Source: Anaeromyxobacter dehalogenans 2CP-C
GTDB taxonomy: Bacteria > Myxococcota > Myxococcia > Myxococcales > Anaeromyxobacteraceae
Reading direction: 5' to 3'
Length of the DNA: 64,000 nucleotides
Assembly (NCBI RefSeq): GCF_000013385.1
Contig: NC_007760.1
Coordinates: forward strand, 4,624,001-4,688,000
The notes under the pieces are model-generated. The model was not told where the DNA came from. It made no database searches and was given only the letters and a program-made list of their open reading frames with translations. Within the stretch, counting starts at the first letter, position 1. Each line of letters starts with the position of its first letter. This document shows, piece by piece, positions 873-2,231 of this stretch. The translations under genes and the position numbers were made by a program.

Positions 873-2186
873 TCAGTGCTGCAGCGCCGCCAGCCGGCTG
901 CGGGCGCGGGCGAGCTGGCCGTGGGGACGGAGCCCCTCCGGCAGCGCCTGCCCCTCGGCGAGCGCGCGCTGCAGGGTGGCGCGCGCGGCCTCGTCCTCGC
1001 CGAGCGTCTCCTCCGCCTCGGCCTTCAGCACCAGCACGCGGATGCGCCGCGGGCCCTGGGCGCGCTCCAGCGCCCGGCCGGCGGCGGCGAGCGCGTCGGC
1101 GGGGCGGTCGAGCTTGAGGTAGAGCACGGCGAGGTTGGTGGGCGGCACGTACTCGCCGGGCAGGTCGCGCTCCGAGGCGAGCAGCGCCGGGAGCGCCCGG
1201 GCCGGCTCGCCCAGGCGGACCGCGGCGGAGAGCCGCTGGCCGTCGAACGCGGAGCGCGCGAGCGGCGTGGGAGCGCGGGCGGCCTCGCGCTCCAGGAACG
1301 CGAGCCAGCGCCGCGCCAGCGCCTTCGCGCCGGCCTCGTCGCCGGCCGCGTCGCGGGCGGAGGCCAGGCCGTCGTAGAGCCACGAGCGATCGTCCGCGAG
1401 CACGTCCTTCGCGTCGAGCGCGCGGCGCGCGGCCGGCTCCAGCACGGCGAGCGCGCCCCGCCGGGCGGCCTCGTCCTCCAGCTCGAGCGCGCAGGACAGC
1501 CCCTGGGCCGCCACGCGCGCCCGGCCCGGGCCGGACGGCACGGCGGCGAGCGCCTCGCGCGCGGCGTCGGCGCAGGCCACCGGGTCGCCGGCGAGGCCGA
1601 GCGCCTGGACGCGCGCCTCGGCGGCGCGGGCGCGGCCCGGCCAGCGCGGGCCGCCCTTCGCGAGCGCCTCGCGGTAGGCGGCGGCCGCGTCGGCGTGGCG
1701 GCGCTCGCCCGCCAGCCGGTCGGCGCGGGCCAGCGCCGCGTCCGCCTCGGACGCGCGGGCCTTCCGGACGGCGCGCTCGCCGTCGAGCGCGAGCTTCTCG
1801 ATCTGCGCGGCGGTGGCCGTGCCGGCCCAGCGGAGCACCACGCCCTCGGTGGCCGGGTCGATGATCATCAGCGTCGGCCACACGTCGATCGGGAACTGCT
1901 CCACGAACGGCGCGTTGCCGGGCTTCTCGGTGTCGATGTCGAGCCGGACGAACCGCCCGGCGAGCTTCCGGAGCCTCGCGTCCGGGAGGACGTAGGCCCG
2001 CATGAAGCGGCAGGTGGGTCACCAGGGGGCCCAGACGTCCACCAGCATCGGGACGTTCCGGGCCTTGGCCTCGGCGAGCGCGCGAGCGTAGTCGTCTTCG
2101 ATGACGCCCTTCGGCGCGGCGGCGGCGGCCGGAACGGCGGCGGCGAGCGACGCGGCGGCGAGGGCGGCGAGCAGGGCGGTGCGCAT
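873..2186 (-). CDS. Exported thioredoxin-fold/TPR protein, probable selenoprotein (UxxC)
   Basis: The gene reads from ATG at 2186 through an in-frame TGA at 2021-2019 to a TGA stop at 875-873, 437 residues if the inner TGA is decoded. Residues 1-25 are a signal peptide. Next comes a thioredoxin beta strand, MLVDVWAPW, then TGA, then PTCRFMRAYV. The TGA falls exactly on the first cysteine of a WCxxC site, giving U56-P-T-C59. The fold continues with DIDTEKPGN and the cis-Pro segment DVWPTLMIID. Residues from about 140 on are Ala-rich helical TPR-like repeats. Automatic calling would probably start at ATG 2003 and lose signal peptide and active site. A pseudogene or base error is the alternative. 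The likely role is a periplasmic thiol/selenol oxidoreductase; its substrate is unknown. Confidence 0.75.
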
Positions 2187-2231
2187 GCGACCGCTGGTAT
2201 AGCGCGATCCGGCCGCCGGTTCAGCGCCCCG

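Follow-up and report, generated by a model that had tools for sequence, protein, structure and literature searches.

We analysed a 64,000-nucleotide window (positions 4,624,001 to 4,688,000 of the 5,013,479-bp single-contig genome) of Anaeromyxobacter dehalogenans 2CP-C, in which the minus strand carries a gene for a predicted thioredoxin-like selenoprotein. Its features, in window coordinates, are as follows:

873 to 2186, minus strand: selenoprotein gene of 437 residues with signal peptide, UxxC thioredoxin domain and TPR solenoid, selenocysteine (Sec) predicted at residue 56 (frame, Pfam, orthologues, AlphaFold model)
2196 to 2201, minus strand: -10-like hexamer TATACC, 15 nt 5' of the ATG (upstream comparison of orthologues)
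2115 to 2186, minus strand: predicted signal peptide, about residues 1-24, MRTALLAALAAASLAAAVPAAAAA (sequence reading; hydrophobic N-terminus conserved in orthologues)
1791 to 2102, minus strand: thioredoxin domain, residues 29-132 (Pfam, AlphaFold model, fold comparison)
2019 to 2021, minus strand: in-frame TGA, codon 56, predicted Sec (frame and orthologue alignment)
2010 to 2012, minus strand: TGC, resolving Cys59 of UxxC (invariant, 72/72)
1968 to 2003, minus strand: candidate SECIS hairpin, +18 to +53 from the UGA, with an inner stem that pairs 1989-1992 and 1979-1982 (folding predictions)
876 to 1757, minus strand: all-helical TPR solenoid, residues 144-437 (AlphaFold model, fold comparison, Pfam TPR models)
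1572 to 1574, minus strand: invariant Cys205 of the TPR part (70/70 orthologues)
1491 to 1493, minus strand: invariant Cys232 of the TPR part (70/70 orthologues)
873 to 875, minus strand: terminal TGA stop (sequence reading)

Reading of the sequence shows a minus-strand frame from the ATG at 2184-2186 to the terminal TGA, with TGA 2019-2021 as its sole interruption. The frame reads MRTALLAALAAASLAAAVPAAAAAPKG...MLVDVWAPW-U-PTCRFM, and the internal TGA stands where a thioredoxin has its first active-site residue (WAPW-U-PTC), as the preliminary description of this locus had proposed; two Pfam models match across the TGA, Thioredoxin_7 with 43.1 bits (cut-off 27) and Thioredoxin with 31.0 bits (cut-off 23.5). 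Its expectation of an unrecoded start at ATG 2003 also held, the longest in-frame ATG reading frame without recoding covering 873-2003 (376 aa). As no NCBIfam selenoprotein model reached its cut-off for the window protein, and the best unrecoded frame starts at 2003, standard annotation would probably truncate the gene, which suggests that automatic annotation would lose both the signal peptide and the active site of a conserved protein.

Upstream of the ATG, most of 66 orthologues carry a TANNNT-like hexamer at a near-constant distance of 12-16 nt, a spacing that would place the transcription start close to the ATG and thus suggests a conserved leaderless mRNA for this selenoprotein gene. The conservation of this element at its ATG supports the start at 2186. 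The orthologue loci have no evident Shine-Dalgarno sequence alongside the hexamer. The window protein begins with a hydrophobic, signal-peptide-like N-terminus, which in many Myxococcaceae orthologues is replaced by a lipobox-like one, and from these N-termini, read by eye, we infer that the protein is probably exported.

We rejected the WUxxC motif as stand-alone evidence, since the DNA word TGG-TGA-N6-TGY occurs 174 times in the genome and by itself says little. What raises the case above chance is a conserved protein on both sides of the TGA, together with a TGA that recurs at this codon in 27 genomes, the other 45 orthologues examined having Cys there. Within the Anaeromyxobacter family an orthologue was found in 19 of 24 genomes searched (A. 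soli, A. terrae and strain PSR-1 being the named relatives with the gene), all 19 with TGA at codon 56, and eight Myxococcota outside the family have TGA there too. Across the phylum, 72 orthologues were examined at this codon, 27 with TGA and 45 with TGC or TGT, and no other codon occurs; the question raised earlier of what homologues hold at residue 56 is thereby answered, and the alignment of an in-frame TGA with a homologue Cys is that of a bacterial selenoprotein. No orthologue was found in five of the 24 family genomes; among these, two good ones (G003 and G010) lack a full-length copy, so the gene can be lost and the protein is dispensable. Both of these genomes carry SelA despite missing the full-length gene.

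The preliminary description had named a frame disrupted elsewhere in homologues as evidence that would count against Sec, and in every complete TGA copy among the 27 genomes the TGA is the only interruption. This recurrence refutes the reading of the TGA as a sign of pseudogene decay or of faulty sequencing, for which the interruption itself and nothing further speaks and which has a vanishingly small probability. Nor is the UGA likely to be a true stop. Translation from ATG 2003, the start of the longest unrecoded frame, would yield a cytosolic TPR protein stripped of signal peptide and active site, but the orthologues conserve the protein sequence encoded upstream (W52, P54 and W55 among it), those with Cys have an uninterrupted frame across this site, and the promoter-like element sits at ATG 2186 instead, which together make termination at codon 56 very improbable.

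All four of the Sec genes that the preliminary description had asked for are in the genome, which thus has the decoding machinery of a selenoprotein-making bacterium: SelA was found, together with tRNA-Sec (selC, 76.7 bits), SelB (315 bits summed, above cut-off) and SelD (380 bits), whose own active site, GAGUACK, contains an in-frame TGA. The SelD locus (L070) lies at G000:C1:3870998-3871924, the TGA being in frame within GAGUACK. SelA is present in 27 of the 27 genomes with TGA at codon 56, and the examined genomes without detected SelA have the Cys form. Cys forms also occur in many genomes that retain SelA and tRNA-Sec.

Folding predictions place a stem-loop just 3' of the UGA, as in other bacterial selenoprotein genes. 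The inner stem has a predicted probability of at least 0.94 in all 27 Sec genes, and exceeds 0.5 in 21 of 45 Cys genes. Compared with synonymous recodings, hairpin stability over +18 to +54 has a mean z of -1.82 in Sec genes and -0.77 in Cys genes (one-sided p 5e-7), and two control windows in the same comparison gave p 0.04 and 0.96, all p-values that ignore the relatedness of the sequences, for a window picked after the folds were inspected. A single pair, at indices 29/42 counted from the UGA, switches between C-G and G-C (15 CG and 6 GC in Sec genes); because most pairs of the inner stem are either invariant or constrained by the codons, we claim conservation of the hairpin and not proven covariation. 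The published bSECIS consensus (PMC13188914) has a loop of 3-9 nt with a G in one of its first two positions, 16-37 nt from the UGA, and the conserved hairpin is without this loop G. Of the 27 Sec genes, 24 have other matches to the consensus, a share that does not exceed the 90% found in synonymous controls, and a consensus scan did not separate Sec genes, Cys genes and synonymous controls. The SECIS check suggested earlier yields a hairpin after the UGA that is conserved yet departs from the published consensus. A subset of putative bSECIS elements also falls outside the model (PMC13188914), so the misfit is no defining exclusion, and we regard the predicted hairpin as a candidate atypical SECIS, which would point to SECIS elements beyond the current model.

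The same misfit is what could be said for readthrough of the UGA without Sec, by a near-cognate tRNA or in a programmed manner, with Trp or Cys inserted at some level. The distribution of SelA speaks against it, as do the need for a thiol or selenol at this position and the restriction of codon 56 to Cys or TGA, and we give such readthrough a small chance. It is instead very probable that the gene product is an exported Sec-thioredoxin with a TPR solenoid, much as the preliminary description had proposed, with both Sec insertion and export predicted from sequence.

An AlphaFold2 model built from 44 orthologues (mean pLDDT 94.6) shows a helical solenoid C-terminal to a thioredoxin domain. Residues 24-180 align with Thermus thioredoxin 2lst (VIA-align, Z 15.5, rmsd 2.9, 127 aligned), and fold, Pfam matches, the U56/C59 pair and an invariant P104 (the cis-Pro position by sequence) mark a predicted thioredoxin-fold oxidoreductase. 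The NCBIfam thioredoxin equivalog TIGR01068 scored 30.3 bits, under its curated cut-off of 96.8. Residues 144-437 align with the LGN TPR domain (Z 17.7, rmsd 5.3, 283 aligned), above the level noted for helical repeats, and so place the protein among TPR proteins; Pfam TPR models match its C-terminal part weakly and match many family members. The only invariant cysteines besides site 56 are C59, C205 and C232. The last two are on consecutive helices of the model (202-215 and 220-234), which makes a C205-C232 disulfide plausible. They are invariant in Sec and Cys orthologues alike.

In thioredoxin chemistry the attack comes from the N-terminal residue of the motif, which in UxxC is the Sec. Taken with the TPR scaffold and the probable export, this makes an envelope reductase with a client docked on the TPR repeats the most likely reading. 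We propose that transcription probably starts at or adjoining ATG 2186, that the ribosome would decode UGA 2019-2021 as Sec by means of SelB, tRNA-Sec and the downstream hairpin, and that the signal peptide would take the protein across the inner membrane. Selenocysteine would then be the attacking residue of an exported thiol-disulfide oxidoreductase, its thioredoxin domain (W-U-P-T-C with invariant Pro104) exchanging disulfides with client proteins bound by the solenoid, while Cys205 and Cys232 on neighbouring helices may be joined in a disulfide, either structural or part of a relay. In its most likely role, as a protein-disulfide reductase of the envelope, the protein would draw on a membrane thiol relay (for instance CcdA/DsbD), with redox direction, partner and client all tentative; an oxidase or peroxidase role is less likely. 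No conserved operon partner was seen in the Anaeromyxobacter family, and in Myxococcaceae the gene lies among genes for a GTPase, a metallophosphoesterase and a LuxR-type regulator. Neither group has a conserved redox neighbour that would point to a partner.

Sec-thioredoxins as a kind are already known. Table 3 of Zhang et al. 2006 (PMC1794560) lists A. dehalogenans with 11 selenoproteins, two of them thioredoxins, and the window gene is probably one of these two, since no other match to PF00085 or PF13899 in this genome contains an internal TGA. That entry, 'Thioredoxin (2)', agrees with the window gene in organism group and family, but the listing gives no locus, architecture, export or Sec/Cys history. 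The wider Sec thioredoxin family of earlier surveys (PF00085, UxxC; PMC1794560, PMC1914089, PMC13188914), for example GSU3446 of Geobacter sulfurreducens, shares the fold and the Sec in first place of UxxC, whereas the window protein is probably exported, judging by its N-terminus, scores best with Thioredoxin_7 and is fused to a TPR solenoid of about 290 residues with two invariant cysteines. The Trx7/PDZ domain-containing selenoprotein (NF041199) likewise has a Thioredoxin_7-type domain, but with CxxU and a PDZ domain in place of UxxC and TPR, and its model gave 14.3 bits against a cut-off of 300. TsoB, a rhodanese/DsbD-like selenoprotein (NF045694), and the DsbD C-terminal domain also contain a thioredoxin-like domain, yet the window protein, which is without a rhodanese or membrane part, reached 26.7 and 27.8 bits against cut-offs of 805 and 330. 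In the open-licence literature we found no account of the fusion to TPR repeats or of its export, nor of how Sec and Cys have alternated in Myxococcota. Sec-thioredoxins of A. dehalogenans were on record in that 2006 table, which tempers the preliminary description; the architecture, the atypical hairpin after the UGA and the repeated Sec/Cys exchange appear to be new.

We traced the exchange on a protein tree built by maximum likelihood after masking of the Sec column; this tree requires six or more changes between Sec and Cys. One common origin for all Sec forms, constrained to a single clade, was rejected (AU p 5.8e-5). Parsimony with a Cys root gives three gains and three losses of Sec, and a two-rate model has a better fit than a model in which Sec never changes to Cys (likelihood ratio 7.0). 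Among the reversals G100 (TGT), which is nested among Sec relatives, is the clearest. Three Sec gains and three reversals to Cys are our best estimate, and the count is an estimate because its direction comes from one gene tree and outgroup rooting. According to a 2026 review Sec-to-Cys change is rare and mainly limited to FdhA and SelD. The 2006 table (PMC1794560) has Sec-to-Cys events in no more than four families and no conversion event for any of the seven thioredoxins it lists. The roughly three reversals estimated here concern another kind of protein.

In the Myxococcaceae examined, Sec and Cys forms lie between the same neighbours and are therefore positional orthologues. G060 (Sec) and G063 (Cys), for example, are syntenic and about 91% identical over most of the protein, both genomes having SelA and tRNA-Sec, and such pairs amount to a natural experiment on what makes a cell retain selenocysteine or give it up. 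We hold it an even chance that the whole picture applies, namely an exported thioredoxin-TPR family of Myxococcota that has repeatedly flipped between Sec and Cys at one codon, reversals included, mostly while Sec decoding was kept, and in which an atypical SECIS class in a leaderless mRNA directs Sec. Protein comparison found no viral relatives; at the DNA level, one 1.2-kb IMG/VR contig (L184:405-428) matches the active-site pattern WAPWU-x-TC.
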